Shown: positions 3,418-34,024 of the stretch, piece by piece | How the letters are laid out: each line of letters opens with the position of its first letter | How positions within the stretch are numbered: the first letter of the stretch is position 1 | Source of the DNA: Akanthomyces muscarius | Lineage: Eukaryota; Ascomycota; Sordariomycetes; Hypocreales; Cordycipitaceae | NCBI RefSeq assembly: GCF_028009165.1 | Contig: NC_079244.1 | Span: 310,001 to 374,000 of the forward strand | Direction: 5' to 3' | Length of the DNA: 64,000 bases | Notes under the pieces: model-generated | Told to the model about the DNA's origin: nothing | Database searches by the model: none | What the model saw: the letters and a program-made list of their open reading frames with translations, nothing else | Program-made: the position numbers and the translations under genes

Positions 3418-4019
3418 TTCCTGTTCCTCGCTGCTCTGGCCTCTGGCGTCTTTCTCTGGACTGCGTTCGCCCTGGCTGTCATAGACACTTGCTTTTTGCT
3501 GGGATTCGCTACGCTCGGCTTGTTTCTTGGCCTCGCTTCGCTCAATTAGACAATAGAGATTAGATCTGCCACGTAGATTCTGAAGGTATGAGAGTGGAAC
3601 ATGTGGAAAAAAAGAGGAGAGATGCAGGTTGAGAGATGAGATGCACTTCATGTCAGATGTGGCGGAGCATTAGCGCGACACTGCACGTGCGGCTGAGGCA
3701 GATCCTTGCCAGGTGTACTTTATGTGCTGCTCATGTGCAAATATCTATAGATTCCAATTTCTTGGTAACCCCCAAAGACCAAACTCGGGACGCCTTTGCA
3801 ATCCTTGCTGTTCTCACGAGTCCATTCACGCTTTTGCTGATTGTACTGAATTTACTCTTCGATATACGTAGATTAAAACTGTATATAACTCCATACACTA
3901 TAGGGACATTATATTTTAGTTACATATTACACCAATAATAAACATTATTATTATCAGGAAGAGAGACATACGATTTAAAATTGCTAAGTGTTTTACTGTT
4001 TCTATATTATTAAACAAAA
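3418..4019. other. Intergenic, GC content falling towards the AT-rich block
   Basis: This is the upstream region of the minus-strand gene. From about 3900 the sequence becomes strongly AT-rich as it approaches the transposon block. No gene is supported. Confidence 0.5.
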
Positions 4020-4021
4020 TA

Positions 4022-4073
4022 CAACGTGGTTAATAAACAAGCGGCGCAGATAAGCGAGCAGCGCACCTCTACT
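4022..4073 (+). repeat. Left terminal inverted repeat of the outer Fot1-type element
   Basis: This is the reverse complement of 14067-14117 with about six transition differences. It contains two staggered copies of a GCG-rich motif with an ATAAGCGAG core. It keeps more G and C than the surrounding RIPed sequence. Confidence 0.8.
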
Positions 4074-4109
4074 ATAAAACACTAACTTTTATCTTTATAT
4101 TATAATTAC

Positions 4110-5284: not shown

Positions 5285-5470
5285 TGCTATTATTAAAGAG
5301 CTTTAGTTACTAGATAATCCTTAGGTTTTTAGAGTAATAGTGGAATTATCACTACCTCCTTACTACTCCCTTATTAGCAGCCTATAGCTATATAGTAGCT
5401 TTTTCATATATAATACCTCTAGTTGCCTATAACCTCCTACTAACTAATATACCCTATAAGTACCCTAATA
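5285..5470 (-). repeat. 3' LTR of RIPed gypsy element (heavily mutated copy)
   Basis: This aligns without gaps over 186 bp to 13881-14066. Differences are almost all C-to-T and G-to-A, and nearly all of the mutated states are in this copy. Confidence 0.85.
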
Positions 5471-7926: not shown

Positions 7927-9787
7927 ACGTAGTTTATAAGCGAGTAGGCCACCTAAGCGAGTAGGCTACCTTCTAGGACCTTATAATAAAAAATATACTT
8001 TAATAAACTGAAATAAAATCTAGTTAATAAAAATTAATTATAATTATTTAAAGAAGTGATTTCTATTACCTTTTTATATGTCCTAGAATTATAGCTAATT
8101 TTATTGTAATTATTATAGCGCTAATAGTGTGGCTTAAGCTATATTAATAGACCTAGACTTTTAGACTTATTATATCTTCTTTTACCCTTCTCTTATAACT
8201 AAGTAGCTAAATTTTTACTAGCCTTTAGAGTAAGAGATCCTCTAGTCTATAAGCGTTTTTTTTTTATATATTAGTACTAAGAAAGTTATATATTTACTAC
8301 CTCTAGCTTATTAATTTATTCTTATATTAATACTATCTATTATATTACTTTTATTATATACTTTAATAACTAAGAGATATTTATAATAATTTCACTTAAA
8401 GAGCTACTCTAATAGATCCTTATCCTTTTTTTAATATATTTTATTTAAGATAGAGCCTTTATTAGGTTATTAGGGGTTTTTAGAAGTTAGGGAAGTTCTT
8501 AACTATTAGTAGTACTAGGAGGTAATAGAGTCTATAACTTTATATTAAGCTATAAAATAATATATTCTAGATTAAAAGGATAAATCCTAATACCTTAAAA
8601 ACTATTAAGGATATTTAATTTAGTTATAAAAGCTTTATATACTAAGTAAACTATAAGGAAAAATTCTTTCTTAGTAATATAGGTGACCTTAGTATATATT
8701 AGATTATTAATTATATTACTATATATACGTTTTAATAACTAAAAATAGGTAATATCTAATAGTCAGAGTATATATAATAAATAAGTAAGTATATATAATA
8801 TAATTATATTATTTACCTTATAATATAGTTTAAAATCTATAAAGTAATAGCTTTTATACCTATTAAGGATTAATAGCCTATATTTACTAATTCTTTTAGT
8901 CTTTATATATAGATTAAAATACTTAAACTATTCTAAGTACTTCTTATTTATAGTCTATCTATTTTTAGTAATAAAAATAGCTTAGTTATAAGGTAAGGGG
9001 CTATTTTTATACTAAGAGGAGAGGTAGGTTTTACCTATAATAATAATAAATAGAGGAATAATAATACTAGCTATACTAATATACTTTATTATTATCGCCT
9101 AAGTATAATTTCCTTATTATATTTTCTAACCTTTTTAATATCTTTCTATACCTATAATAACCGTTTTAAATAATATTTAGCCTATTATAAAGCCTGTCTT
9201 ATTAAAGTTATAAATCTCCCCCTTTTATATACTATATTTTATAATAGTGTTTTCTATAAGCTAAAACTAGTCTTAATATTACTTTAGATCTTTATATTAG
9301 ACTCTTTAATAGTTAATTTAATATAATAAATATATAATAAGTTCTAAGTATTACCTAATAAAGTTTATAGACTAGTACCTCCTAACTAGAATGTTATATT
9401 TAAGCTCTAATAGGCGGTTAGTTATAGCTTTTACGTTATATAGGTAAGACAGCTAAGATTATATATCTAGATTAAGAATATACTAAATAAAGAGATCTTC
9501 TTCTTTATTTATTAATTTTTAAGAGTATATTATTATATTAGTTTAGCTTAGTTATTCTTATTAATAATATATTAGTGTTATTTATAGTATATTATAGATA
9601 TAAGCTATACTTTAAAGTAATAGTATAAGGTCTTTTTTTAAAGCCTTAAGGGCGTTAATAATATCTTTTTTATTTAGAGTTAAAACTATTTTATCCTATT
9701 AAGTTAATAGAGTTTAAACACAGTTAATTAAAAAATAATATAAAGTGGCCTACTTATTTAGATAGCCCGCTCACTTATAAACTATAT
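7927..9787 (-). mobile_element. Second RIPed Fot1/pogo-type transposon nested in the gypsy element
   Basis: Inverted repeats begin ACGTAGTTTATAAG on the left (7927) and, on the opposite strand, ATATAGTTTATAAG at 9787, extending about 45 bp. TA dinucleotides flank both ends (7925-7926 and 9788-9789), the target duplication of the Tc1/mariner/pogo superfamily. On the minus strand, 9181-9218 reads EIYNFNKTGFIIG, the RIPed version of the first catalytic motif of Fot1 transposases. The rest is too mutated to read confidently. Its terminal repeats share the ATAAGCGAG motif with the outer element, which suggests related families. It lies between the gypsy pol core and the integrase tail. Confidence 0.8.
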
Positions 9788-11399
9788 TAAGTAAATTATA
9801 CTATAAATAGTTTTTTAACCTAATTAGTCTATTTAATATTATAAAATATATATAGGTAGTATTCTAATACCTAATTTATACGTTCTATTAGACTGTCTAT
9901 TTATAGGTAGAATATAACACTAAGTTGCCACTTATACGCTATAAGGTAGTAAAAGCTTCTCTAAAAGCTAGATATAAAGATACTACCTTAGTCTAAGATA
10001 ATACCTTTAGGTACTCTATATACTATAATAATTTTCTTATAGAAGATTTCTATAAGTCTATTACTAAATAGGTATATATTTATAGTAATATAAATATTAT
10101 ATTATATTACCTTATCTATTATTACTAGTATTATATTATATTTACTATATTACCTTTATTATTCTAGTAATTTAATAATAAGGTCTATTAATATTTCTTT
10201 AAATAGATAAGATAATAGTAGTAATAATATAAAAAGGCTATAAGGTTAATATATTCTAGGTTTTATTATTTAATATATATAATAGTGTTTTATATATATA
10301 TTAATATTATATCTTATTCCCTATTAGAAAAAAGATATAACTACTTTATATAGTATCTAGTAAATTCCCTAATATCTTATAGTAAGGTTATTATAGTATA
10401 GTTATAAGATCTCTACCCTCTCTCTAAGTAATATATAGATTCTCCCCTTATTTACTAAAAGGCCTACTATATTTACCACCTAGTAAACTCCCTAAATTCT
10501 TAGGTCTTCCTTATTACTATTATATAGTGCTTTCTTAGTTTATTTAATAAAGATATCTCCTTATTAGGCTACTAGTAGCTACTCTTATAGTGTTTTCTTA
10601 CTTAGTGTGTTATCTATATTATTACTACTTCTTTATAGCGCGTTCTTTAGCTACTTATTACTCTTAGCTATCTAAGTACTCCTTTAGTTTACCCTAATAT
10701 AGTAAATTTTTATATTATACCTATTATTCTTTATTTATATAAAATAGTTTAAAAATTATAATAATAGTTATTCTATATATAACTTATTTATATCTATTTT
10801 ATAGTTTACTTAATATAATAAAGTATCTATAAGGTTATACTTACCTAGTCTAAAAATAATTCTAAAGTTATATAGAGATAGTTTATCTATTACTACTACT
10901 TACTTATATAATAGTGTTTTCTTCTCTATAAGATAGCTATAGTTTAGGTAGTCTATAATAACGTTAATAGTTACTATTAGGTAGACTAGATAGTATCTCT
11001 ACTAGTAGAATACTACTAAAATTACTAATATCTCTATATTTAGTATTTAGTAATTTAGTTTAGCTCCTTATAACTTCCTTAATAAAAACACTATAAGATA
11101 TTAGTAAGTTCCTTATAATTATAATAATATTACTTTAATTATAAAGTCTAATATATCTATTTCTATATATATATAGGCTTTTAAATTGAACTATATAAGT
11201 ATAAACGCTTTCTTAAATAATAGCTTAAAGTACTAAAACGCCTATAATTTATAGATATTTAGTATAAATTTTACTAATACGCCTCTTTTTATTTTTTCTA
11301 TTAGAGGTACTATAATCTTACTAAAGTTCTTAATAAATTACCTATAGAAATTTATAAACCTTATAAATACCTAGATTTCTTTAATAGTAGTAGGTTATA

Positions 11400-11720
11400 A
11401 CTAGTTCGCTACTCTTTTAATATATTCTAAATCTATTTTAATTTTACCTAGTTTAATAATAAAGTTAAAGAATTTAACTATATTTATATTAAACTTACAC
11501 TTTTCTAAATTTAAAAATAGTCTAGCCTTATATAGCTTTATAAAGACCTAATAAATATACTATAAATAGTCTATAAGGTCCCTACTAAAAACTAAAATAT
11601 TATCTAAGTATATAATATAGATATAATTAATATCTTTATATAAGGTAGTATTAATATATTCTTAAAATAATATAGGCACTTTAGTTAGCTTAAATAGTAA
11701 TACTAAGTACTTAAAGTGTC
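11400..11720 (-). pseudogene. RIPed reverse transcriptase core of the gypsy element
   Basis: Reading the minus strand and ignoring stops, a LFKLTKVPILF-like stretch (family PFGLTNAPATF) is followed at 11581-11619 by YIIYLDNILVFSR. Here the catalytic YLDD has become YLDN. Then comes a LFLNLEKCKFNINIVKFF stretch, the expected fingers/palm segment after the active site. The order and spacing are those of Ty3/gypsy reverse transcriptases. Loss of the second catalytic aspartate and many stops make it inactive. Confidence 0.85.
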
Positions 11721-13880
11721 TAAATTAATAGTAAAATACTATCTTCTACTTATTACCCTTATAGATTCTTAGCTATCTATATATATCTTTTATATCTAAC
11801 TTAGTATAGAACTTAGTGCCTTATAGTTAATTAATTATTTCTATAATTAAAGGTAATAACGCCCTATTTTTCTTAGTAATTTAGTTAAAGCTATAATAAT
11901 TAATATATAAGTAGAGTTTTCCCCCCTTCTTTAATATAAATAAGATAAGAGTTCTTACTAAACTAGTAGATCTTCTAATCTATCCTTATTTTAGCCCTTT
12001 ATTAATAAAGTTATATAGCTTATATAACTCTCTTACTATAAGAGGGTAGATAGGTCCTTATAGTAACGTCTTACTATCTTCTAGTTTAATAGTATATATA
12101 GGCCTATATAATAGTAGTAACTTTATAGCTTTTTTAGGTAAAAAGAGCTCTATAAATTCCTAGTATTCTTATAATAACTTTATATATATTCCTTTTATAG
12201 TTATAATAGGTAGGTTTAACTAGCCTCTTACTAGTATTATCCTAAATTTAGTATTCTTTATAACCTTTTAAGCTCCTTTTAAGTTTAATACTATCTTAAT
12301 ATCTTTTATATTAATACTATAATTCTAATAGTCTAAGCTATTATAAATTAAAATATTTTATTCTCTAATTTATTACTAACTAAAAATAAAGTCCTTTAAA
12401 AATATTATAACTAAGAAAAGAACTTATATCTCTTTTTATATTTAAGATTATTTATAACTTATAATATTTTTATAACTTCCCTATTTACCTAAATTCCTTT
12501 TTTAGTTAAAAGATATATTAGTATAGTTAGTTTAAAGAAGCTATAAACTTCTAATTTTTTAACTATATACTTATTAATAATATTTAGATTACTCTTTATA
12601 TTAATTATTATTATTACTTTTTCTTAACTATATCTTATTTACACTTTTATTATAACTTTATATTAAAGGTAGATTTAATAATAGACCTTATCTTATTATA
12701 TCTCCTCTATATAATAGTTCTTAATTAGGCTATTATTTAGGTATATTATTATATTCTTACTCTAAGTTACCTATTTTATCTTAGTAATTTTTAACTAATC
12801 CTTATACTTATTAGTAGTATAACTTCCTCCTTTATAAATAGTATAATTATCTATAAAGTAGTTTCTTTATAAGTAGTTACCCTTATATTTAAAATATCTT
12901 ATAAAAAAGTCCTTACTAATATATAATATATCTATAATATTTTAGTTACTTTATAGCTTATTTTTATCTAATATAGTAAGTTAAGGCTTTAAGATTATCT
13001 TAGCTTATAAGGTTATATTTACTACTCTTTTAGTATTCTCTATATAAAACTCTAGCTCTTTTTATATTATAAGATTACTATTACTACTTATTACTATTTA
13101 AAGCTTATAACTAAGTCCCTTTAAAGCTATTATAATTTAGAAGCTAAAAGGTAAAAAATCTAGTAGCTTTATTATAGTATTCTCTATTTAATATAGATAC
13201 TTCCTTACTAGCTTATTAGTGTTATATTTATATCTTAAGAGGTTATAAGTTACTTACTATACCCTAATATTTTTATCTCTTAGTTCTTTTTTATACTAAA
13301 TATTAAAGTCTTTTTAAATAACTCCCCTATAAGTTCCCTATAAAGTTATAATAAAGTAATAGGCCTATTATATCTATACCTCTCCTTATAGACACTATAC
13401 TATATATATTACCCTATTAAGGTTATCTATATAGTCTTCTATATACGCCTAAAAGTGTATTTATAAGGTAACTATAAAGCTTATATACTCTTAAAATAAT
13501 TATCTAGTAAATACTATACTAAAAAGCTTTATTATTACTATATATTTCTTATAAATTAGTTCCTTTAAGAGGTTTTTTAATTCTAAAATTACTATAATTA
13601 GCTACCCTTTTACTAGCTACTTATAGTATACTACTAGTTATACTTATTTCTATTTTTTTACTACTTTTTAGATACTAACTTATATCTCCTTTACTATTAT
13701 TAAGCTAATAGCTATACTTACTATACTACCTAATAGGTTAGACTAAACTAGTAATATTATTTATTACACTCTTATAGTAGTCTCTCTACTTACTTATAGT
13801 AAGGTAATAATTTATTTAGTTATAGTACTATAAGTAGTTTAGTATCCTATATACTAGGTAGTAATAATAATCCTATAAAG

Positions 13881-14066
13881 TACTATCGTTAAAGAGTTTT
13901 AGTTACTAGATAATCTTTAGGTTTTTAGAGTAATAGTGGAATTATCGCTGCCTCCTCGCTACTCCCTCGTCGGCAGCCCGCAGCTATATAGTAGCTTCTT
14001 CGCACGTAATACCTCTGGTTGCCTATAACCTCCTACCAACCAACGTGCCCTGCGGGTGCCCTGACA
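13881..14066 (-). repeat. 5' LTR of RIPed gypsy element (much less mutated copy)
   Basis: This is the same 186 bp as 5285-5470, but most C and G positions are retained, particularly over the last 130 bp (for example GCTGCCTCCTCGCTACTCCC against ACTACCTCCTTACTACTCCC). It borders the right inverted repeat of the outer element directly. Confidence 0.85.
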
Positions 14067-14415: not shown

Positions 14416-15339
14416 ATGTCGCGCAATGGTCCTAGCAATACCTCTGCCGATGACTCGCTCCGTCATAACCGCCGTGACTCCCAGGCTGGCAGAAGCAGAA
14501 CCGCCCTGGTGACTGGCGCGGGGCGAGGAATCGGGAGAGCGATCGCCATCGCCTTTGCTCATGCGGGCTACAATGTAGCCTGCGTCTCGCGAACCCGGTC
14601 CGAGGTGGAAAATGTTGCTGCCGTTATAAACCTGACTACGCCTTACGAGGCAGGGGCTTTCGTCTGCGATTGTTCAGATGCGAATGCCTTGCACACGCTT
14701 GTCCGCGACGTTCGGCGTTGGAATGATCGTCCTGTTCATGTGCTGGTCAACAATGCGGGGTGCGCCAGGGTCGAAGCTGTCGAGCACCAGTCCAGCATGA
14801 CTCCATGGCAGCGGATCATGGACACGAACCTCAATGGTCCCGTGGCTTTAATTTACCAACTTCTACCAGACATGCTCGCCCGTGAGTCTGGTGTATTGAT
14901 CAGTATCGGGAGCAGGAACGCTATCTACACTGTACCCTACATGTCTGCGTATTCTGTTTCCAAGACCGGGTTGTTTCGCTTTCACCAAAACCTACAGCGC
15001 GAAATCGGCGATCGTGGAGTAGCCAATTTCTTCGTGGTTCCAGGGCTAGTGGCATCATCTATACTAGAGCCAGAGGACGCCATAGATCGAGCTAGTGTTG
15101 ACGCGATCCCTGGTGTCCGAAGGACAGTTGAGTATCTCACGGGTGCCAAAATGGGCTCTGCTGAGCCGGTAGCCAATCTATGCGTGCGATTGGCACTGGA
15201 TGACTCCTTGCGGCTTCTTAGTGGCCGATTTGTTGACACGGAGGACAACTTGGAAACAATTCTGGAAGATTTGCGACAAGGTGAACAGAGCAGATGTGTC
15301 ACAGAAAATTTGTACATGATGAGAGTGGATAAACTATGA
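14416..15339 (+). CDS. Short-chain dehydrogenase/reductase
   Basis: A single-exon 307-residue protein. The classical SDR signatures are present in order: the NAD(P)-binding TGAGRGIG at residues 33-40, NNAG at 112-115, a serine near 163-166, and the catalytic Y179-x3-K183 in SAYSVSKTG. It should be a cytosolic NAD(P)H-dependent alcohol/ketone oxidoreductase. The substrate cannot be told from sequence. An N-terminal extension of about 25 polar residues precedes the Rossmann fold. The ATG at 14416 is the first in frame. The gene begins 300 bp from the edge of the RIPed transposon block and is convergent with the CmcJ-like oxygenase gene 65 bp downstream, hinting at a small metabolic gene pair. 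Confidence 0.9.
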   Translation: MSRNGPSNTSADDSLRHNRRDSQAGRSRTALVTGAGRGIGRAIAIAFAHAGYNVACVSRTRSEVENVAAVINLTTPYEAGAFVCDCSDANALHTLVRDVRRWNDRPVHVLVNNAGCARVEAVEHQSSMTPWQRIMDTNLNGPVALIYQLLPDMLARESGVLISIGSRNAIYTVPYMSAYSVSKTGLFRFHQNLQREIGDRGVANFFVVPGLVASSILEPEDAIDRASVDAIPGVRRTVEYLTGAKMGSAEPVANLCVRLALDDSLRLLSGRFVDTEDNLETILEDLRQGEQSRCVTENLYMMRVDKL

Positions 15340-17927: not shown

Positions 17928-19589
17928 TCAGAGCTCACCACTGCCGCAGCTACTTGCGCTGTCTTGCTTACACCTATCAGTGAATATAAGTTGCCCACCG
18001 CCCCATTTTAGAGCAATGGCATTGCCTTCGGTATTGAACTGAAACGCAACATTAAAATAACTCTGCTCCCATGCCGTAAATCTCGCTCGTCGAGCCTGCT
18101 CGTCGTAGCTGAGTGCCCACTCGAAAATGTCGTCATTAAGATGACGAAGCTCATATCTTTGGGTATCCTTTCCTTGAAATAAGACCTCCAAGACACCGGA
18201 ATTATCCTCGCGTTGCTCGATATGAACATAAAAGTTTCCAAGTGCATTGTAATAGTCGCCGCAATAAGCTGCTACCGGCCGGGGGATGACATCGTGGAAT
18301 TCTTTTCTAGTCTTTTCGAGTTCGGCCATCATAGTAGCGACCTTGCCGACCTTGCGTCGACGAGACTCCTTGGCGAGCTCCACATAGTCTTCACTGGACT
18401 CAAATCCATGAATAGCGGCTGCAATAACCTGTGCGATCCAGTCTGCAGCGTCGTTGAGAGGCATGGAATTGGTCAGCACGACGAATCCCGTTTCCGTTTC
18501 GGGAAAGAGGTAGATGGCGGAGTAATACCCTATCCCTGCGCCTTGATGGTAAAAAGTACGTATGGACTTGGTAGGTTCTTGGGGTCTGTTGATGTAGGGA
18601 AGCTCGTCCCACGGGAAGAGCTCTGCATTGTCACCTTGAAGCCCAACCACGCCTGGCAGGTGAGTTTCGATCCAGCCCATACCGTACGAGCCATAACTCT
18701 CCACAGATGTATCCAGTGGGATATGGCCTTGGAACAGCATATCTAAATTGCTCAGTGGACTGTACCGCGGGTCAATCTGCGACTGGAGCAAAGCTTGACA
18801 ATACTTGAGCATGTCATTGATGGTTGAATACATGCCACCGGCCGTTTCAAACAGGCTTCCTAAGAACGGAAAATTCCTAGGAAGACAGTAGGTAGTTGCA
18901 TTCTCGAGTGCGGTGTAGGCGTCGGCAAAGTCCGTGTGCTGATCCAGAATAGGTCTCATAGTAGTGTTGAAGAGGCCAAGAGGTAAGAGTATAGATTCGC
19001 GGATGTACTGGTGCGCAGGCTTACCAGAGAGCTTCTCAATGATTTTACCTGCCACACTGTACCCCCAATTGTTGTACAGCCACGATTGCCGCAAAGGCGC
19101 CGCAACATCAAGCTGCGACACAGTCGGAGCCACCTCGGACGGCTGGAGAAGAAACTCCATGTCGCCCTGCAGGGCAACAGACATGTCACCGGAAAGCCCA
19201 GTTCGATGCGAGAGAAAATCAACCAGAGACACATCACCGTTCAGGCCCGGTTGCTGTGGGTGATACTCTGGCCAGATATCTTGTAGTGGTGTCGTCCATG
19301 TCACAGACGGATGCTGGAGGAGAAGCTGGGCCAGGCTTGCGGCGACAAAACCTTTCGTCAGCGAGCCCAAACCGTACAGAGTGTCTGCCGTGGGCGAAAG
19401 CTGGTCCGCAACATTTCGATAGCCAATGTTCTCAAGGTATATAGTCTGGCCCTTGTGAATAACGCCAATCGAGGCTGCAGGGACACCGGAGATATTACAA
19501 ATGTCGCGGATGATAGGAAGCGCTGCGCTAAGACGTTGTGTGATAGTATTGGGCTTCATCTTGAAGTCTTTCTGGTCCTCCTGTGGCAT
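17928..19589 (-). CDS. Serine beta-lactamase-like hydrolase (class C/esterase family)
   Basis: An intronless frame of 553 residues from the first ATG (19589). The ATG at 19559 has a better context and would give 543. The penicillin-binding fold motifs are in order: S-x-x-K in GSLTK (about residues 76-79), Y-x-N as YNN (172-174), and a late HQGAG where KTG is expected. Such fungal proteins act as esterases, amidases or transesterases on diverse substrates rather than as resistance enzymes. A C-terminal beta-rich region after residue 440 (GDYYNALGNFYV) resembles the extra domain of many family members. No signal peptide is evident. It neighbours the SDR and CmcJ-like genes. Confidence 0.85.
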   Translation of the reverse strand: MPQEDQKDFKMKPNTITQRLSAALPIIRDICNISGVPAASIGVIHKGQTIYLENIGYRNVADQLSPTADTLYGLGSLTKGFVAASLAQLLLQHPSVTWTTPLQDIWPEYHPQQPGLNGDVSLVDFLSHRTGLSGDMSVALQGDMEFLLQPSEVAPTVSQLDVAAPLRQSWLYNNWGYSVAGKIIEKLSGKPAHQYIRESILLPLGLFNTTMRPILDQHTDFADAYTALENATTYCLPRNFPFLGSLFETAGGMYSTINDMLKYCQALLQSQIDPRYSPLSNLDMLFQGHIPLDTSVESYGSYGMGWIETHLPGVVGLQGDNAELFPWDELPYINRPQEPTKSIRTFYHQGAGIGYYSAIYLFPETETGFVVLTNSMPLNDAADWIAQVIAAAIHGFESSEDYVELAKESRRRKVGKVATMMAELEKTRKEFHDVIPRPVAAYCGDYYNALGNFYVHIEQREDNSGVLEVLFQGKDTQRYELRHLNDDIFEWALSYDEQARRARFTAWEQSYFNVAFQFNTEGNAIALKWGGGQLIFTDRCKQDSASSCGSGEL

Positions 19590-20540
19590 AAAGGAAAGAG
19601 GGCGCAACTGGTGTCGAGGGCTAAGCGTGGCGAAAAGAAGGGCGTGGGGGCTCAAACGAAAGCGTGTCTGACCTGGCTTCACAGATTGCCCGGCGACCTG
19701 CGTTTCAGCTCAGCCCGCTGCACCAGTAGCGTAATAGCTGCATATTAAAGATATTAATAGTATATTACTTTACTGTACATCAATCTTGAAGATGAGTTTC
19801 TACAAGAGATCTTATTTTATATAAAATAATATTCCCTTCTTGAACTAAAGTAAGATAGCATTAAATATTATTCATAAAAATAACATAATTATATACTCAA
19901 TAGTTATTACTCTTTTAAAATTAAATATATAGCTCTCTATAATACATTGCTAATTATTGGCTTAATAATTACAAGAGTCTTTACTTACGGACTGTTTATA
20001 TGATATTATTTCTACTATTTATACTTTACTGGTGTGATGTGTATGCTAATAGGGTAATTTGCTATGTACGACGCGGTCGCGTAGTAACTTTTTGACTGCA
20101 CTCATACGTCAGCTGAAATGCGCGGCCTGATCTGCCACTCTCAAGTGTGGCCGCAACGTGTCAGGTATCTATTAGGTAGGGGTACATTCCATTCATATGC
20201 CAGACATACCTTCTCTTACTAGTGCAATGATTTTCGTCACATTTGCTTTTAATCAGGCGGAAGAGCCGGCGTCATGCATGGTGATGTGGCTGACAGCATG
20301 TCGCTATCTTGCCCTCCTGACAAATCACATTCCTGCCTCGCGCCCCAGTCAGCCTCTCTGCTTCCGGCCTGTAGTACCTCCCCTCCCCAGGCAGCCATCG
20401 GCTCAGCTCCAGGAAGTGGACCGAGAAATATTCATCCTCCCGTCATACAGCAGTCAGGTTTAGTCTCGTTTACTAGTCTCGAGACGTTGCTCAAGAGGGA
20501 GAAGGCCTTCCACACCAGGCAAAGCGGAGCCTTGGCGGGC
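19590..20540. other. Intergenic with a short AT-rich relic
   Basis: About 19740-20050 is distinctly AT-rich and may be a small RIPed relic, but nothing in it can be identified. 20050-20540 is normal in composition and has no recognisable gene. It ends at the target duplication of the intact retrotransposon. Confidence 0.45.
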
Positions 20541-20545
20541 CAGTA

Positions 20546-20940
20546 TGTAACGATGGCTTATTTACTAAGTCACAGTAGGTCTGTTTCTTAGGAAGTGAGT
20601 CAGGCTGAGGCTACAGGGTAGCACGATCTTGAGCAGTAGGCGATAAACGGTCGTTAAGAGTAGAACTCTCAATAGTGAAACTATTGCTTAGATTGATCAA
20701 TAGAGATCTAAACTATCTAGACTAGCTGTGGCCTTTGGGCTCCTTAATATACTAGAACCAATCTCTATTGCTCGGTGATGCTCTCCTTGCTCAGTGTGCT
20801 CAGTGCTGAGCAGGCTGAGCAGACTGATCAAGGTGAGCAGTCACGTGACACTGCCCCTCTTTCCTAATCGGGCTTCCTAGCAGTTGCGTCACTTCCGCTG
20901 GCCGCCGTTCCGCCGGCCAGGCTTCTTTGCGTTTGTAACA
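20546..20940 (-). repeat. 3' LTR of the intact chromovirus
   Basis: Base-for-base identical to 26846-27240 when read through. It is bounded by TG...CA and preceded by the CAGTA duplication. Confidence 0.97.
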
Positions 20941-20957
20941 TAATACTCCTCCTCCAT
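20941..20957 (-). other. Polypurine tract
   Basis: On the element's sense strand ATGGAGGAGGAGTATTA lies immediately before the 3' LTR, the position of the plus-strand primer in LTR elements. Confidence 0.75.
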
Positions 20958-21056
20958 TGGTCTTGTCCTCAAGGCCGCTACAACAGGCCTCCGCACAGGT
21001 TTCAGCCGCCGGTGAGCAACTTCCCTCCTGCATCCTTTTTTCTTCATGGCTTGACC

Positions 21057-21608
21057 ATGTCTAACGCACGCGTTAGTAAATCCTATCGTTCCTCCACTCA
21101 GCGCCGCCACGATCTTATTTCTCGAATTGAAAAAGTCGGCCTTCAACTTTTCGACATGGGTCGATGTACACCTTGTCGGGAGAGGAACTCTCTTTGTTTT
21201 GTTCTGAAGGGGTACACGAAATGTTCGGCTTGTCTGAAGAAGCAAACCCCTCACTGCGATGGTAACTTCTCGACCGAGGAGTTCGACCATATCGAATCAC
21301 AGAAGGAGCGTCTTCGTCAGGAGGCGCAGCGCAAGCGTCAGGAGGTTGGCCGTCTTGCAGCCGCTGCTGCGGCGGCATACTCCGCCTTGGCTCAGGCACA
21401 ACAGGAGGAAATCAACATCGCGTCCAAGCTGGATCATTTCACAGAGACGCAGTCTCGTATGCTTCGTCAGGAGGCGCTGGCTTTGGACAGCCTAGACGAG
21501 CCTCCTGGGTCTATGATTGCTTTGGAGGATCCTAACTGGATGTGGGATGAGTCTCTGCTTTTCGGTGGAACTGCGCAAGCAGTTCCGAGCAGCCAGACAG
21601 GTTCTTGA
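21057..21608 (+). CDS. Antisense accessory ORF with Zn2Cys6-like motif, inside the retrotransposon
   Basis: A 183-residue frame on the strand opposite to gag-pol, starting at ATG 21057 (the frame is open a little further upstream, but without an ATG). Residues about 36-67 have C-x2-C-x6-C-x8-C-x2-C-x7-C, the spacing of fungal Zn2Cys6 binuclear clusters. A Glu/Arg/Ala-rich helix likely to form a coiled coil follows, then an acidic Trp-containing tail (DPNWMWDESLLF). It sits between the pol end and the 3' LTR, overlapping the last 77 bases of pol in antisense. The upstream LTR could serve as its promoter. An intact frame with ordered motifs suggests selection. Its function is unknown, and a role as a DNA-binding regulator is inference. 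Confidence 0.75.
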   Translation: MSNARVSKSYRSSTQRRHDLISRIEKVGLQLFDMGRCTPCRERNSLCFVLKGYTKCSACLKKQTPHCDGNFSTEEFDHIESQKERLRQEAQRKRQEVGRLAAAAAAAYSALAQAQQEEINIASKLDHFTETQSRMLRQEALALDSLDEPPGSMIALEDPNWMWDESLLFGGTAQAVPSSQTGS

Positions 21609-24600
21609 TTGGTTCCCAGGTGTTCTCGGAGTTAGGGTATTCCTTCCATTTAATGAGATATTCGCGTTTTTTGTGGTTTCCTCGTGCTCTGAGTACTTTC
21701 TCAATTTCGTATTCGTCGTTGTTTTCCACAACAATGTCTGTAGTGACTGTGATGTCATCTGGTGCTTTTTCCAGTAATGAGATATGGAATATGGGATGGA
21801 TTCTCATTCCATCGGGTAATGATAGTTCGTAGTTGGTGTTCGATATTTTTCGTTTGATAAGGAATGGTCCGATTTTCTTCCAGTCGAGTTTGTCGCTGGG
21901 TCGCTTTGTTTTGATGTTTTTGCGTATGAGGTAGACTTTATGTCCCTCCTCTAGGATTGGCGCTGGCAATCTCTTTTTGTCCGCATAGTGTTTCATACGG
22001 TTTTGTAAAAATATCCATTCTTGTTGCAGTTGTTTTTGTATTTCCGTGATTGTTGCTGCATGTGCTGTAGCTGCTGGTGCGTTGACATTCCGTGTCGCGT
22101 GTGTTGCGATCACAGGGTCGAATCCGTAATTCGCTTTGAATGGTGACATCTTCATGTTGTCGATTTCGGAGCTATTGTAAGCCCATTGTGCGAGTGGTAG
22201 CCACTCTACCCAATCATCTTGTTGGTGGTTGACATAGCTTCGTAGGTATTGTTCCAGTACTTGGTTCAGAATCTCAGTCTGACCATCTGACTGTGGGTGG
22301 AATGCCGTAGATAAGCTTTGCTTGATCTTCATTGTCTCCATGAGGCATTTCCAGAAGTTTGATGTGAACAATTTGTCGCGATCCGATATAAGTTTTGTTG
22401 GTAATCCGTGTTGAGCGATAACTGTTTTGAAAAACATGTACGCCAAGTCTTTGGTGTCGCTAGATTCCATGTAAGGAATATAGTAGGCATACTTTGTGAG
22501 TTTATCGACAATGACCAGGATACTGTCGTAGTGTACTCCTGTCATGGGTTCTTTGGACTTTGGTAGCTTGACGATGAAGTCCATGGTAACAGTTTGCCAT
22601 GCTCTTTCAGGTGGTGATATCGGTTGTAGTTCGCCGTAAGGTGCATGTCGTGCTGACTTTGCTTTGTTGCAAACGTCGCATTTTCTGATAATTTCTTGCA
22701 CAATCTTCCTGCTCTCAGGGAAGTCATATGATCTTCGTAGTCGACTAATTGTTTTTGCAACACCTTGGTGTCCATGTAGCGGGTGTGCGTGTATTTCTTC
22801 CACAAGCTGTTTTTGTAATACAGCTGGGACGTATAGTCGATCGTTGTAAAAGTAGTCATTTTCTTTCCGTGTGAGAAATGGGGTCGATCTCCAAGTGTCG
22901 GTTAGACGGTCTCCTTGGATTCTTGACTTGATTCTTCGCAGCCAGATGTCATCTGGTTGTACTTGCCAAGTCATGTTGATTTCTCGGGTGCCTAGTACAA
23001 GGTTCCCGTCCTTGGTTTGGCGTAGCAAGGGTGCATTGTCCACTTGCTGTTCTGTCTTCAAATCCTCTCTTCGGCTGAGCGCGTCTGCTCTTCCGTTTTC
23101 GGATCCTTTGCGATATATGATTTCGAAATCATAGTCTGTGAGGGTTTCGTACCATCTGATCTGTCGTTTGTTCAGATCTTTCGTAGTCGTAAAGGAGGTT
23201 AGGTTCTTGTGGTCGGTGTAGACCTTGATCTTATGATTCGCTCCTTTTAGGTAATGCTTCCATTCCTTGAAGGCTTCGATAATAGCCATAAGTTCTTTAT
23301 CGTGTATGCCGTAGTTCAATTCTGGTCCGTGGAGTTTCTTTGAGAAGAATGCGACTGGGTGAAGTCGGTCTTCGTTGTCTCGTTGTCCAAGTTGTCCGCC
23401 GAGTGCGTAGTCTGAAGCGTCGGTTTCAACTTCGAATGGTTTGTCGGGGTCGGCTGTAAGTAGAACTGGCTCATCTAGGATTTTCTCTTTTAGTTTCTGG
23501 AAGGCGTCGGCTTCCTTGTCTGTCCATTGGAATTCGTTATCCTTCTTCGTGAGGTTGGTAAGAGGAATGGTGATTTCTCCGAATCCGCGGATGAAGCGTC
23601 GATAGAAGTTTGCGAATCCGAGGAATCCTCTTACTTCTCTGATGTTGGTTGGCGTGGGCCAGTTCCGAACATCTTCGATTTTGGATGGACTCATCCTGAT
23701 TTGTCCTGGTGTAATTTCGTATCCTAGGAACTCGACTTTGTGTTGATGGAATTTGCTCTTAGCTACTTCAACGAGGAGCTGGTTGTCTTGTAGCGTCTGT
23801 AGTACTTCATGTACATGTTTCTTGTGTTCCTCAAGTGTGTTGGAGAATATGAGGATGTCGTCAAGATAGACAACAACGAATTTGTCGAGCTGTTTCCGTA
23901 AAACATTGTCGATCATGGTTTGGAATGTTGCGGGTGCGTTGGTGAGGCCGAATGGCATCACAAGATACTCGAAATGTCCTCTCGTGGTTCGAAAGGCGGT
24001 TTTCCACTCGTGACCTTTAGCCATACGAATCAGATTGTAAGCTCCTTTTAGGTCGAGGGTGGTAAACCACTTGGCTTGTCCAAGCTTGTCTCGTATCTCC
24101 GCAATGAGTGGTAACGGATATCGGTTCTTGATTGTGATCTTGTTAAGTTGCCGATAGTCGATGCATGGTCGTAGCTTTCCGTTTTTCTTTGGTACCCATA
24201 GGATTGGGTATCCTGCTGGGGATTCTGATGGTCGTATGTATCCCTTTTGTAGCATCTCGTCCAGATACTCCTTAAGAGCTTTGTCTTGTGCAGGGTTCTG
24301 GGGATATATCTTGTTGAACGTTGGTTCAGTACCGGGCTGGAGCTTGATCTCGTGGTCCCAGCGTGAATGCTCCGGTAGTCCTGTTTCTAGCTCTCCGCTG
24401 AACAGCTTGCTGTACTTTGAGTATTCCTCGGGAATCTCCGTTGTACTAGCTTTGGGCTCTCTGGCGATCACATATATTCCTAGAGGCCTGTCTTGATTCG
24501 ATTGAGGTGCTCCTTGTGAGCCGCTCTCATTGTCGTAATCGCATCCTGGTGGATCCCATTGGAGTTGGCCTGTTCTCCAGTTGACTCGGGGATTGCTCGC

Positions 24601-24894
24601 TCGCAACCAGGGTATCCCTAGTATAACATCGTGTTTTGAGATCACTGTGATGTCCAAGGTAACATGGTGTTTCGTGCCTTGTATATCGATCGGAAGTTGC
24701 GCTACTTCCATATCGACTACTCCTTGGCCGAATTTTACTGCATGTCCTTCCACAGTCGTGAGTCGGTAGGGCTCGTCTTTCATATTCCAAGGCAATCGTA
24801 ATTTGTTGACGAGATTCGGCGAGATAAAGTTTCCTTGTGCTCCGCTATCGATCATTGCCTGGATCTTTCTTCCCATGATCTTCATGGTAATCAT
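21532..24894 (-). CDS. pol: Ty3/gypsy Pol polyprotein with chromodomain
   Basis: A 1,120-codon intact frame. It runs in order: aspartic protease (DSGA at 16-19); reverse transcriptase with LDLKGAY near 280 and catalytic YLDD at 343-346; RNase H (ETDASDYALGG); integrase zinc region (HGHQG...CDVCNKA); integrase core with the DDE residues in TMDFIVKLP, SDRDKLF and the QSDGQTE region; and a C-terminal chromodomain ending around YLIKWKEYPNSENTWEP. RT-before-integrase order plus a chromodomain defines a chromovirus, in which the chromodomain targets integration to marked chromatin. The first ATG is at 24894, but the frame is open upstream across the gag stop, so it is probably made by -1 frameshifting. 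Confidence 0.97.
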   Translation of the reverse strand: MITMKIMGRKIQAMIDSGAQGNFISPNLVNKLRLPWNMKDEPYRLTTVEGHAVKFGQGVVDMEVAQLPIDIQGTKHHVTLDITVISKHDVILGIPWLRASNPRVNWRTGQLQWDPPGCDYDNESGSQGAPQSNQDRPLGIYVIAREPKASTTEIPEEYSKYSKLFSGELETGLPEHSRWDHEIKLQPGTEPTFNKIYPQNPAQDKALKEYLDEMLQKGYIRPSESPAGYPILWVPKKNGKLRPCIDYRQLNKITIKNRYPLPLIAEIRDKLGQAKWFTTLDLKGAYNLIRMAKGHEWKTAFRTTRGHFEYLVMPFGLTNAPATFQTMIDNVLRKQLDKFVVVYLDDILIFSNTLEEHKKHVHEVLQTLQDNQLLVEVAKSKFHQHKVEFLGYEITPGQIRMSPSKIEDVRNWPTPTNIREVRGFLGFANFYRRFIRGFGEITIPLTNLTKKDNEFQWTDKEADAFQKLKEKILDEPVLLTADPDKPFEVETDASDYALGGQLGQRDNEDRLHPVAFFSKKLHGPELNYGIHDKELMAIIEAFKEWKHYLKGANHKIKVYTDHKNLTSFTTTKDLNKRQIRWYETLTDYDFEIIYRKGSENGRADALSRREDLKTEQQVDNAPLLRQTKDGNLVLGTREINMTWQVQPDDIWLRRIKSRIQGDRLTDTWRSTPFLTRKENDYFYNDRLYVPAVLQKQLVEEIHAHPLHGHQGVAKTISRLRRSYDFPESRKIVQEIIRKCDVCNKAKSARHAPYGELQPISPPERAWQTVTMDFIVKLPKSKEPMTGVHYDSILVIVDKLTKYAYYIPYMESSDTKDLAYMFFKTVIAQHGLPTKLISDRDKLFTSNFWKCLMETMKIKQSLSTAFHPQSDGQTEILNQVLEQYLRSYVNHQQDDWVEWLPLAQWAYNSSEIDNMKMSPFKANYGFDPVIATHATRNVNAPAATAHAATITEIQKQLQQEWIFLQNRMKHYADKKRLPAPILEEGHKVYLIRKNIKTKRPSDKLDWKKIGPFLIKRKISNTNYELSLPDGMRIHPIFHISLLEKAPDDITVTTDIVVENNDEYEIEKVLRARGNHKKREYLIKWKEYPNSENTWEPIKNLSGCSELLAQFHRKAETHPTSS

Positions 24895-24945: not shown

Positions 24946-24990
24946 CCGTCGAAGAGTCGGTCTTACTTGCAGCGACGGCTGTCTTTTCCC
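24946..24990 (-). promoter_or_regulatory. Probable -1 programmed frameshift signal (gag-pol)
   Basis: On the sense strand a GGGAAAA heptamer at 24984-24990 is in the gag frame as G GGA AAA, fitting the X XXY YYZ rule. A 5-nt spacer follows, then CCGTCG, which pairs perfectly with CGACGG at 24946-24951. After a -1 slip the frame is open into pol with no stop. This is read from sequence only. Confidence 0.6.
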
Positions 24991-26795
24991 GAATTCCTCT
25001 TTTGTTCGCGTTCCTTCTTTCGTAATTGTCGGTGGTAATCTTCCGATTGTTCGGAGCTTGGGCAGCGTTCTGTTTGCTTGCCGGCTATGTTGATCGAACT
25101 CGGACTAGGCGAGTTTCTCGTCATTACACGGTTTCCTCCATCCTCATAACGTGAGGTCATGGCTCGGATAGTGTATGCGTTTTCGTCCTCAACATAGTAA
25201 GTTGCGTCGTCGTTCTTCTTGAGAAGCAACGTGTTGGAGGTTCTTCTCCAAATTTTCCAGTGTCGGAGGTCTGTCTCCAAAAAGGGTCCTTGGCCCGTGT
25301 GCTGTGGCTTGGGGAACCATCTGTATTCAAGTTTCTTCCAGAGGTGTCTCTGGCATCCGTGGTGTGGGCAAGAGGCCCATGAAATCATGGCGTGTTCCCT
25401 GTGTGATATGCTTACGACAGGGTTTCGTCGGATATAGGCGGTACTCATTCCGATGGGTCGGTATAGTAATTCAACGAGCATCGCGGGATCTGTGATATCC
25501 GTGCCATGGATCACGACGGCTGTAGGTTCGGGGTCCCCTTCTTCCATTGATAGTGCACTGACGAGGTTGCTAGGTCCTTGAGGGTATGGAACACACGTGA
25601 AAGCGTCGGTCAGGTCGAGCCTGGTTGTATATGCTGGTGGCTGAGTGCCGTGTTCCCAATCTTCTTCCTCAGGTACCGGCTGGGTTCCGAAGTCCCAGTC
25701 TTCGTCCGAACTGGTGTCGTCTACTGAGCGGTGTTCGTCCGCTTCCAGGTATCGTTCAGTGTCAGAGACGTATTCTTCGCTGTTTGCCATACTAAGGTTT
25801 CGAGTAGGCAAATCTTCGCGGTTGGCCGCGTGGAGTTTTCGTCCTTCTCCAACGGGCTTCCATTGTTTCTTTTTGGGGGCGTGACATTTGTTCGCGAAAT
25901 GTCCGGTCTTACCACAATTGTAGCAAGTCTTCCCCTTCTCTTTATGTGCGGCGTCAAGTTCCATTGGTCCGGCGTGGTGTCCATACGCAGTGGAGGTTCG
26001 TCGGTTTTTGCTTGTATTGGGTTTGTTGAACCTTGCATAGTTGTTAAATTTTCGTCCACCCGTCTTTTCTTGACGTCGTTCATAGAGTCGGTTGTCCGCT
26101 TTAATGACTGTCTCGATGAAAGTGTCGAGCAGCTCGGGTCGTTCTTCTCGGTAGATGTCGTCTTTAACTTCTTCTTTGAGGCCTTGGTAGAAGATTTCGA
26201 TCAAAGCTTCCTGTCCCCAGTTGAGCTTGGCCGCGATCCGTTTGAACTCTCTTGCATAGTGAGCGGCGGATCCGGTTTGTCGGAGACGAGTAAGCTGTCG
26301 AGTAGCTTCCTTATGTTCATCGGGGTTTCCGAAAGCACTAAGGAGTCGGTCCTCAAAGGTTTCGTAATCCGAAAAGACGTGGACAACGTCTGCACCGGCT
26401 TCAGCGCCGTGCTTTAGGTATGCCCGCAGCGTAGGCTCCCACCATTCCATTGCTTTTCCGGTCAAGAGGTTTCCGATGCAGAGGATTCTGTCCTCAGCAG
26501 TGTTGAGTGTTTTGTCATTGACTCGGAGGTAAGCCTGGGCTTGGGTGAGGAAGTTCCTCACATCTCCCTTGTAACCATCGAATGGTTCGGGTTTGGGAAA
26601 CTTGGGTTTGTTTGCCTGGGCCCTTTCAGGCATCCCGGAGGCAGCAATTTGGTTCTCATGTTGTTCCATGGTTTCATGGAGGGCATTGGTACGAGAGAGA
26701 AGGCTTCGGTTCTGCTTCTCGAGCTCGGCAATCTTGGCCATGAGTTGCTGGATCTCCATTCCAGGGTTGGTGGTTCTTCCGCTTGCGGTAGACAT
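24963..26795 (-). CDS. gag: Gag protein of the chromovirus
   Basis: A 610-residue intact frame beginning at ATG 26795. The N terminus has a Leu/Gln-rich coiled coil (residues 15-50), then a retrotransposon Gag capsid-type region (KPEPFDGYKGDVRNFLTQAQ, WWEPTL, YREERP, up to about residue 250). One CCHC zinc knuckle follows (CYNCGKTGHFANKC, near 291-304). After the knuckle there is a long acidic and then basic tail, longer than in most Gag proteins. It packages element RNA into virus-like particles. The last codons contain the slippery heptamer that probably shifts a fraction of ribosomes into pol. Confidence 0.95.
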   Translation of the reverse strand: MSTASGRTTNPGMEIQQLMAKIAELEKQNRSLLSRTNALHETMEQHENQIAASGMPERAQANKPKFPKPEPFDGYKGDVRNFLTQAQAYLRVNDKTLNTAEDRILCIGNLLTGKAMEWWEPTLRAYLKHGAEAGADVVHVFSDYETFEDRLLSAFGNPDEHKEATRQLTRLRQTGSAAHYAREFKRIAAKLNWGQEALIEIFYQGLKEEVKDDIYREERPELLDTFIETVIKADNRLYERRQEKTGGRKFNNYARFNKPNTSKNRRTSTAYGHHAGPMELDAAHKEKGKTCYNCGKTGHFANKCHAPKKKQWKPVGEGRKLHAANREDLPTRNLSMANSEEYVSDTERYLEADEHRSVDDTSSDEDWDFGTQPVPEEEDWEHGTQPPAYTTRLDLTDAFTCVPYPQGPSNLVSALSMEEGDPEPTAVVIHGTDITDPAMLVELLYRPIGMSTAYIRRNPVVSISHREHAMISWASCPHHGCQRHLWKKLEYRWFPKPQHTGQGPFLETDLRHWKIWRRTSNTLLLKKNDDATYYVEDENAYTIRAMTSRYEDGGNRVMTRNSPSPSSINIAGKQTERCPSSEQSEDYHRQLRKKEREQKRNSGKDSRRCK

Positions 26796-26845: not shown

Positions 26846-27240
26846 TGTAACGATGGCTTATTTACTAAGTCACAGTAGGTCTGTTTCTTAGGAAGTGAGT
26901 CAGGCTGAGGCTACAGGGTAGCACGATCTTGAGCAGTAGGCGATAAACGGTCGTTAAGAGTAGAACTCTCAATAGTGAAACTATTGCTTAGATTGATCAA
27001 TAGAGATCTAAACTATCTAGACTAGCTGTGGCCTTTGGGCTCCTTAATATACTAGAACCAATCTCTATTGCTCGGTGATGCTCTCCTTGCTCAGTGTGCT
27101 CAGTGCTGAGCAGGCTGAGCAGACTGATCAAGGTGAGCAGTCACGTGACACTGCCCCTCTTTCCTAATCGGGCTTCCTAGCAGTTGCGTCACTTCCGCTG
27201 GCCGCCGTTCCGCCGGCCAGGCTTCTTTGCGTTTGTAACA
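26846..27240 (-). repeat. 5' LTR of the intact chromovirus
   Basis: Identical to the other LTR and followed by the CAGTA duplication. On the sense strand a TATATTAA box lies at 27044-27051, a plausible core promoter for the genomic transcript. Confidence 0.97.
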
Positions 27241-27536
27241 CAGTAGTTCCCGCGATCGAGATGGTGGGTTGCGGGGTAGCAACTAAATACGGCGCGCTGT
27301 GCCCAGTCCCATTCATAGCCGAAGTGTCTAATTACCAATGGTTAGTGGAGGGTAGACAAAGAGGTGTCTTCAAGGATAAGCTCAGCTACTAGGCGGAGTT
27401 ACCACACCTCTTTTCCTGATTGCAGCTCCTTATTAGTACTCCCGCCTTGTCCAGTATTATATTCCATATTTTATCGTCATTTTGACCACGGTACATTTTG
27501 ACCGCAGTACTCAATCTGGGCCAGCTATTTTTCCTC

Positions 27537-32137: not shown

Positions 32138-34024
32138 TCATACCCAACAAATCATATCAGTGTCAATCCATTCCTTCATCTGAGCCCAGTCTTCCAGCAA
32201 GCTGTCAAACTGGAAGCCTGGGCTCCTTGGTGCGGCGTTTCCAGCACTTGCCTGTGTCCTGATCGAGGAATTAGCCAAAGTATTTCCCCAGCGCATCGGA
32301 CAAACAAACTGTAAATGGGCAAGTATTCTATGCGCCCGAGCACAAATGTTACTTCGCCCGGAAAGTGCCTGCATTCGGCGCGTCAGGCCCTCAATCTCCT
32401 CGCGGCAAGTGTCTAGCTCGAGGTCCCGATCATGTGTCGACAACGGGTCTTGGAGGCAAGAATTCAGTGCCACAGCCGCATGCAGCGCCTTCAGACTCGT
32501 CACCCCGCTCAGCAGCCAGAGATAATTCCGGAGCAGCGGCTTCTCGTATATCTGCCGGTGCATCGATAGCAGCTCCCCGCTGGAGCTAATACATCTTGCC
32601 CGCGAGGCTGGACGAAAGGAAGAAGTCTTGGAGTGATGGAAGGGCCGATGTATGAGGAGATATAGATGGTGCGCGTATGTTTGCAAGACGCACCAGTACG
32701 CGTAGCTTGTAGAGTCCAACACGCTCGGAGAGCCGTCCACCATGAACGTCGCATCCCAGTGAGCCTGCTCGGCGGCGATGGCGGCGTCAAACTTGTGCAG
32801 CATGTTTGGGTCTAGTTGTGAAGGCCCTGATATGTGCTGGCAGATGTGCGTCGAGAGCCGAAACAGCCGAACCTTGCACATCATGACCGACATTTGCGTA
32901 TACCCGCCGCCCACGCACGGCTGCGCGACACCCTGCTCGGTAATGTCTCCATCGTTGACATCTGCTGGCAGCGACGCTTTGATGGTCAGCAGATAGGAGA
33001 AATCCACGTCGCGGAATAATATGCCCTGGTACGTGTGCAGCGTCAGCAGGCCAGCCCAGCATCGTCGCCGCCTTTCCGTCTCGACGGGGCCAAGGTTCTT
33101 GTCCATGTTGCATCGCAGCGCAATGCCGATATTCAGCGCCATGCCGAGCAACGCCCACCCCTGATGCACCGTTTCATTGTGTGAAAAGCTGTAAATGACC
33201 ATGAGCAGCGCCTCAAACGTGCTAAATTTGTGCCGCACAAAAAAGTCATCCCGTAAGAGACACGCCATGGCCGTCTGGAGAAGACGACGCGAGGCAGACA
33301 CGGTCACAGAAGGCCCCGCGGACTCTTCCGACGAAAAGGACGACAGCCGAGGATCGCTCTCGTCCATGGTGCTTAGCGCGAGCGAGCACAGTGAGAAGAG
33401 TAGTGCTAGCCAGGACAGATCCGTGTCGTGGGGGCTTTGCAGGAACGCCCGGTACTGTTTTTGGAACGTCGGTCCGTGGAGGATCGGAAAGAGTGGGAAT
33501 ATGTAGTTGAAGAAGTGCGAGATGAGGTAGTCGCAGCAGGATCGTGGAGGCAGGTTGTCAATGATTTCCTCGAGAGACATGCGCGGCGCAATAGACAGTG
33601 GCGAAAACGTATCATGAGCCTCATATTCCGGGGTCGGTCTCTCTAGGACAGTTTCCCATTGTGCATGTAAAGATGTCCGGTCCGTTGCTGGTGTCGCTCC
33701 TAGCTGCAATGGCGGCACATTGACCGAGTTCTGCCTCGACCCGACGACATCCGATGCGCCGCCCAGCCCGTTTGCCGCTCGGGGCGCCCGCCGAATCGAT
33801 GCATTCTGAGTAGAGTATGCTGAAGTGGGCGTGCTGGAAGAAGAAGATCCGTAGCCACAGTCGCCTTCTCGGCCGCGACGCGTACATGCGCCGCAGGGCT
33901 GTTGGCGATCGCATTTCAGCTTGGATCGGCGACACTCGTCGCAGCTCACAGGTCGGCGCTTTCGGCGCTGGGAGCTTGCAGCTCGCTGCAAGGGCGCGTT
34001 ACCTGCAGATCCGCGATCGTGCAT
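32138..34024 (-). CDS. Zn2Cys6 transcription factor with fungal-specific TF domain
   Basis: An intronless frame of 628 residues. A basic stretch (SQRRKRRPVS) precedes the binuclear zinc cluster CDECRRSKLKCDRQQPCGAC followed by a sixth cysteine eight residues on (residues 28-56). The middle region carries the fungal-specific transcription factor domain (SLEEIIDNLPPRSCCDYLISHFFNYIFPLFPILH, then the QGWALLGMALNIGIALR segment). It is a nuclear DNA-binding regulator of the GAL4 type. The target genes are unknown. It is divergent from the adjacent MFS transporter gene with about 750 bp between starts, a common arrangement for a local regulator and its target. Confidence 0.95.
   Translation of the reverse strand: MHDRGSAGNAPLQRAASSQRRKRRPVSCDECRRSKLKCDRQQPCGACTRRGREGDCGYGSSSSSTPTSAYSTQNASIRRAPRAANGLGGASDVVGSRQNSVNVPPLQLGATPATDRTSLHAQWETVLERPTPEYEAHDTFSPLSIAPRMSLEEIIDNLPPRSCCDYLISHFFNYIFPLFPILHGPTFQKQYRAFLQSPHDTDLSWLALLFSLCSLALSTMDESDPRLSSFSSEESAGPSVTVSASRRLLQTAMACLLRDDFFVRHKFSTFEALLMVIYSFSHNETVHQGWALLGMALNIGIALRCNMDKNLGPVETERRRRCWAGLLTLHTYQGILFRDVDFSYLLTIKASLPADVNDGDITEQGVAQPCVGGGYTQMSVMMCKVRLFRLSTHICQHISGPSQLDPNMLHKFDAAIAAEQAHWDATFMVDGSPSVLDSTSYAYWCVLQTYAHHLYLLIHRPFHHSKTSSFRPASRARCISSSGELLSMHRQIYEKPLLRNYLWLLSGVTSLKALHAAVALNSCLQDPLSTHDRDLELDTCREEIEGLTRRMQALSGRSNICARAHRILAHLQFVCPMRWGNTLANSSIRTQASAGNAAPRSPGFQFDSLLEDWAQMKEWIDTDMICWV

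Follow-up and report, generated by a model that had tools for sequence, protein, structure and literature searches.

An antisense gene for a zinc-cluster-like protein in a fungal chromovirus

The window, a 64,000-nt stretch of the Akanthomyces muscarius genome (NC_079244.1, positions 310,001 to 374,000; part of contig C4 in a genome of 36.2 Mb in 12 contigs), contains a complete Ty3/gypsy retrotransposon on the minus strand, with two identical 395-nt long terminal repeats (LTRs), and is flanked on each side by the 5-bp target duplication CAGTA. Pfam recognizes RVT_1 (5e-40), Chromo (4e-17), and Integrase_H2C2 (2e-15) in its pol product, with the rve core below the cut-off; the reverse transcriptase, RNase H, integrase zinc-binding domain, C-terminal chromodomain, and LTRs identify the element as a Ty3/gypsy chromovirus. 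Antisense to gag and pol, between pol and the 3′ LTR, lies an open reading frame (ORF) of 183 codons that we call aORF, for antisense accessory ORF. A first-pass annotation, made from the letters of the window alone, had described an intact frame opposite pol in the 3′ region. We found the frame intact, from its ATG, at 21057–21608 (+), and it is indeed antisense in the 3′ region, but most of it does not face pol: a gap of 475 nt separates the pol stop from the 3′ LTR, aORF starts 116 nt from the LTR edge, and the two coding regions overlap only over 21532–21608 (77 of 552 nt). Given this small overlap, we reject the idea that aORF is a by-product of pol. Its antisense position between pol and the 3′ LTR and its conservation as a protein place it in the class of antisense accessory ORFs designated aORF-3R.

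We conclude that, in this fungal chromovirus, aORF is a real accessory gene, because it has 52 homologous proteins and because 9 of 12 differences from a degraded relative that are not attributable to repeat-induced point mutation (RIP) fall at third codon positions. A protein search, as the first-pass annotation had proposed, gave 18 relatives at E ≤0.01 among 82 candidates, and a profile search extended these to 52 among 7997 scored candidates (74–203 aa long, with 36–88% identity to the window protein when aligned). Two carry fungal names, Beauveria bassiana (88% identical) and Pochonia, and many lie on short contigs; all genomic context for the family comes from one genome, that of the window. 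Scans of viral and prokaryote contigs matched the search patterns in 40 and 84 stretches, none of which was confirmed as a relative. The one DNA-level test of selection, a third-position count standing in for the ratio of nonsynonymous to synonymous substitution, compared aORF with L060, a RIP-degraded relative whose alignment has one gap column across the frame. Outside the pol overlap, the first, second, and third codon positions hold 1, 2, and 9 non-RIP differences (p 0.0037; a small count, 12 in all), a pattern like that of pol (2, 2, and 14; p 0.00015) and not the neutral one that had been named as grounds for abandoning the gene. Length by itself is not overwhelming, as 4 of 2000 Markov-simulated 700-nt regions reach 183 codons; nevertheless, it is extremely improbable that a frame of which only 77 nt face pol, and which has 52 homologues, a constant spacing of its cysteines, and third-position bias, arose by chance.

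The encoded protein has six cysteines, at residues 37, 40, 47, 56, 59, and 67, and no others. We aligned it with its relatives in 53 rows, 42 of which span all six positions; the other 11, which lack part or all of the cluster, stand outside the count. Forty of the 42 keep the arrangement C-x2-C-x6-C-x8-C-x2-C-x6..8-C, with spacings of 2-6-8-2-7 in 35 rows, 2-6-8-2-6 in four, and 2-6-8-2-8 in one. The two deviating rows have tyrosine at one position (P0044) or at three (P0051), and tyrosine also occupies one or two of the positions held in the partial-cluster rows P0040, P0047, and P0048. Thus, the GAL4-type spacing claimed from the single sequence is real, and its loss among homologues, which had been proposed as disproof, is not what the family displays. 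The general Zn2Cys6 spacing (C-x2-C-x6-C-x5..12-C-x2-C-x6..8-C) occurs in the window protein and in 40 of the 42 spanning rows, in none of 100,000 shuffles of the aORF protein, and twice in the 121,936 six-frame residues of the window. The second window occurrence, at 33848–33946 (-), belongs to a Zn2Cys6 transcription-factor ORF, being a PF00172 (Zn_clus) match within a 631-aa open frame. In a first alignment of 19 rows, all 16 invariant columns lay in the long helix that follows the cluster, partly on account of two rows without the zinc region; in the 53-row alignment the best-kept columns are in both the zinc region and the helix.

From end to end the protein consists of a basic N terminus, the zinc cluster, a long helix (residues 73–147), and an acidic aromatic tail, the first and last of which are kept in nearly all full-length members. 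The helix is coiled-coil-like, as had been suspected, and the tail does carry the predicted acidity and tryptophans (net charge -7 over residues 140–183, two Trp). In a structural second look (VIA), every listed row was a Zn2Cys6 DNA-binding domain, albeit with low scores. Sequence comparisons gave less: the other Pfam matches listed for 40 rows all fell below cut-offs and were mostly coiled-coil families with stray zinc-ribbon noise; NCBIfam matches for four proteins were likewise below cut-offs; BFVD returned three matches, all at E above 3; and searches of PDB sequences found coiled coils for the most part, HAP1 appearing at E 1.5 with the window protein as query and not with the profile. 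Compared with the fungal Zn2Cys6 factors HAP1, PUT3, LAC9, Leu3, and Pho7, the aORF protein shares the cysteine spacing, the order of cluster then helix, and a low-score predicted fold, but it is only 183 aa long and is borne by a retrotransposon. Table 1 collects the features of the element.

Table 1. Coordinates of the element and of its antisense gene within the window.
Feature	Position	Strand	Basis
Target-site duplication CAGTA	20541–20545 and 27241–27245	.	Sequence at both element edges
3′ LTR, 395 nt	20546–20940	-	Repeat comparison
Six CGG/CCG triplets (two overlapping), near outer U3 edge of LTR	20895–20916	.	Candidate binding site, lead only
Leader, 3′ LTR edge to aORF ATG	20941–21056	+	Sequence
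Pyrimidine box, 39 nt before aORF ATG	21018–21029	+	Within leader
aORF, 183 aa, stop included	21057–21608	+	ORF, 52 homologues, third-position bias
Zinc-cluster-like region, residues 37–67, C-x2-C-x6-C-x8-C-x2-C-x7-C	21165–21257	+	Cysteine conservation, Zn2Cys6 structural rows
Long helix, coiled-coil-like, residues 73–147	21273–21497	+	Alignment and structure prediction
Acidic tail with Trp/Phe, residues 148–183	21498–21605	+	Predicted with low confidence
pol ORF, C-terminal chromodomain at about 21559–21711	21532–24894	-	ORF and domain search
gag ORF with CCHC zinc knuckle	24963–26795	-	ORF and domain search
5′ LTR, identical to 3′ LTR	26846–27240	-	Repeat comparison

A frame with the same cysteine spacing recurs at the same place in degraded sister elements. 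When the genome was searched with pol, 52 matches were listed, many degraded with dozens of stops, and we examined 18 four-kb stretches around the stronger degraded ones, those left aside being mostly weaker. Because RIP turns TGY into TAY, C or Y was allowed at each motif position. Matches to the 2-6-8-2-6 motif number 16, spread over 15 of the 18 loci (L045, which still has cysteine at four of six positions, has two that overlap). All are antisense and ≤700 nt past the pol match, with none on the sense strand or in the rest of the 18 stretches; replacing the linker of 8 by 4–7 or 9–13 gave no match in the antisense gap. Of the three remaining loci, L057 carries a comparable frame in which one position differs, the pol match of L059 ends early, and L056 has no such frame. 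The same antisense position in sister elements is thus supported, by motif and within this genome.

We sorted the loci by eye into four groups: L060, which is window-like; L045, 046, 049, 052, 054, 055, 061, and 062; L050 and 053, with 057 and its changed position; and L047, 048, 051, and 058. Because copies inside one group are related, the 15 loci amount to about four independent cases. A tblastn search with the L045 frame found L053 at 1.6e-6 and the L047 group weakly (0.03–0.09), with L050 and L057 unlisted. Over the zinc region, the number of residues that L045 has in common with L050 and L048 exceeds that in permutations (0 and 0.002). The window type shares no clear residues there with the sister types (0.53, 0.058, and 0.85), and between its frames and those of the L045 and L048 types we detected no residue similarity beyond the cysteine spacing. 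Since place and spacing alone support it, common descent of these frames is suggested and not shown. The family hidden Markov model found only L060 convincing among the 18 loci, and a search with the L045-type frame, a degraded query, gave no intact relative at E 0.01. Upstream of the frame, a pyrimidine box (AACTTCCCTCC-like, RIP-tolerant) is present in the window, L060, seven of the eight L045-group loci, L050, L053, and L057, but in no member of the L047 group.

The genome also holds at least 12 aORF copies besides the degraded one, counting the window copy. One, on C7, has clean target duplications, CAAGG; others form tandem LTR-internal-LTR arrays of six and four units at the ends of C1 and C4. 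These arrays (G000 C1:7420175–7450776 and C4:4832115–4856708, L009–L012) consist of nearly identical head-to-tail units of the window element with a period of 6299 nt, neighbors share an LTR, and they run to or off the contig ends, as either real terminal arrays or an assembly effect. The fetched copies are identical to the window copy over up to 6.7 kb, bar one 1-nt length difference in aORF, and the first C1 unit has an additional internal deletion and a few differences next to it. All 11 other copies share one frame break in aORF. The first-pass annotation had listed elements with a broken frame as evidence against its proposal; such elements do exist, but at almost zero divergence from the intact one. 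Because 11 of 12 near-identical copies are frameshifted, recent amplification did not require aORF in cis; its function may be provided in trans, or the gene may be dispensable. The open frame of the window is probably the ancestral state because the homologues read through the break site in frame, an argument weakened by the preference of predicted-protein databases for open frames. The 1-nt difference could also be an assembly error in a short run.

We propose that the aORF protein is a nuclear DNA-binding regulator of the element, acting in trans, most simply as a dimer on CGG-rich sites in the LTR U3, and we give this reading a probability of roughly 55%. The proposal builds on three points: helix and tail are consistent with a dimeric activator, the LTR has a cluster of CGG/CCG triplets, and CGG triplets are the usual target of Zn2Cys6 proteins. 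The LTR has six CGG/CCG triplets inside 25 nt, a density reached in none of 2000 shuffles and in five of 162 equal-size tiles of the window, two of the five being the element's own LTRs. In the proposed mechanism, aORF would probably be transcribed inward from a putative antisense promoter in the U3/leader region of the 3′ LTR, the Zn2Cys6-type cluster would bind zinc, the long helix would probably dimerize, the dimer would bind the CGG-rich U3 sites, and the bound protein would raise or tune LTR transcription. A three-codon frame, ATG GCT TGA, at 21046–21054 (+) ends two bases before the aORF ATG, and translational control through it is possible. The gene, its conservation, spacing, place, and architecture are what the analysis establishes, together with a predicted fold of low score; every step past a conserved zinc-cluster-like protein we infer.

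Several observations weigh against a simple activator. At E up to 10, Zn_clus (PF00172) recognizes no row among the 40 with six cysteines, and a profile comparison with it yields a probability of about 20%, covering half of the domain. None of the 53 rows has the basic first-loop residues that belong to the PROSITE-like pattern of Zn2Cys6 factors, and to these observations we add the frame break of the 11 sister copies. Of the outline of a transcription factor drawn earlier, a predicted Zn2Cys6-like fold is supported with weak scores; the Zn_clus match and the basic loop are absent; an ordinary host Zn_clus gene is rejected for want of a profile match. A basic CxxCxKK..CDG-like pattern does appear, in 37 of 53 rows, in the second half of the cluster. 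In a swapped-half test (four comparisons, uncorrected), this second half scored above chance against both Zn_clus halves (fractions 0.033 and 0.025; raw scores 7.0 against the first half and 2.5 against the second), and the first half matched neither (0.88 and 0.70). As a weak lead, the two halves of the cluster may have changed order compared with Zn_clus, the basic half with CDG coming second.

The missing DNA-contacting loop and the silence of Zn_clus also favor a zinc-cluster, coiled-coil accessory factor without a transcriptional role, one that would bind nucleic acid or chromatin for particle assembly, nuclear import, integration, or escape from silencing, and the confinement of the invariant columns of the first alignment to the helix, partly owed to the two rows without the zinc region, fits it as well. 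We consider this possible but doubtful: the basic N terminus and acidic aromatic tail persist in nearly all full-length members, and all listed structural rows are DNA-binding domains. That the antisense transcript itself regulates, through double-stranded RNA, silencing, or interference, with the protein secondary, is suggested by the arrangement adjoining the LTR, by the 11 of 12 copies that retain the DNA although their frame is gone, and by the roles discussed for antisense RNA in plant elements (PMC7264820); it is unlikely in view of a protein 36–88% identical among relatives, with fixed cysteine spacing and third-position bias. Capture of a host zinc-cluster gene as cargo benefiting the host would draw on an abundant source (150 scored Zn2Cys6 matches of 355 candidates in the genome), yet similarity to 25 of the genome's Zn_clus domains is weak and a comparable frame occupies the same place in other element groups, making this origin very unlikely.

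The bZIP protein HBZ of human T-cell leukemia virus type 1, a retrovirus of people, differs from the aORF protein in having no zinc cluster, and we claim no homology between them. The likeness is that of an antisense-encoded nuclear protein of a retroelement (PMC11963269). Closer in placement are the ORFs found antisense between pol and the 3′ LTR in Grande, RIRE2, Retand, PvRetro13, and Boty of Botrytis and Sclerotinia, whose role in plants and Botrytis is described as open in PMC7264820. The Retand ORFs, which have a TRP28 domain, are predicted to bind DNA (PMC11963269). The plant ORFs, among them Grande gene23, resemble aORF in position, occur in most copies of a family, and have been suggested to have a nuclear or DNA-binding role; they belong to other protein families (TRP28, SMC-like; PMC7264820 and PMC11963269), Retand is no chromovirus, and the main text of these two papers does not mention zinc. 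The nearest precedent is the gene brtn, carried antisense by Boty-like Ty3/gypsy elements of Botrytis cinerea (Zhao et al. 2011, Virology, as summarized in PMC8365987, PMC7264820, PMC4227169, and PMC5987419). Boty is likewise a fungal element, whose gag-pol has a chromodomain (PMC4227169), in another host; the comparison uses descriptions in those citing papers. Because this gene was published in 2011, the first-pass claim of an undescribed system was too strong. Antisense accessory genes between pol and the 3′ LTR are already known, and what would be new is a zinc-cluster version in a fungal element, of which we found no other report in a literature search that covered mostly titles and abstract starts and few subscription journals.

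Around the element, ORFs at 14416–15339 (+) and 17928–19682 (-) resemble, by eye, a short-chain dehydrogenase and a beta-lactamase-type hydrolase. At 4001–14000 lies an AT-rich block (GC 21–25%) with degraded gypsy pol pieces at 7339–7740 and 9793–10203; it resembles what RIP would leave, not far from the GC-normal intact element.

For the family, we tentatively suggest that a lineage of fungal chromoviruses may have carried its own antisense zinc-cluster trans-acting factor, binding its LTRs, since an early stage, in an arrangement analogous to that of HBZ, and that copies without it could live off a sister copy in which it is kept. The conserved architecture of zinc cluster, helix, and acidic tail makes the regulator idea directly testable, and the copies differing by one aORF frameshift make it possible to compare, in a natural setting, elements that have the gene and elements that lack it.
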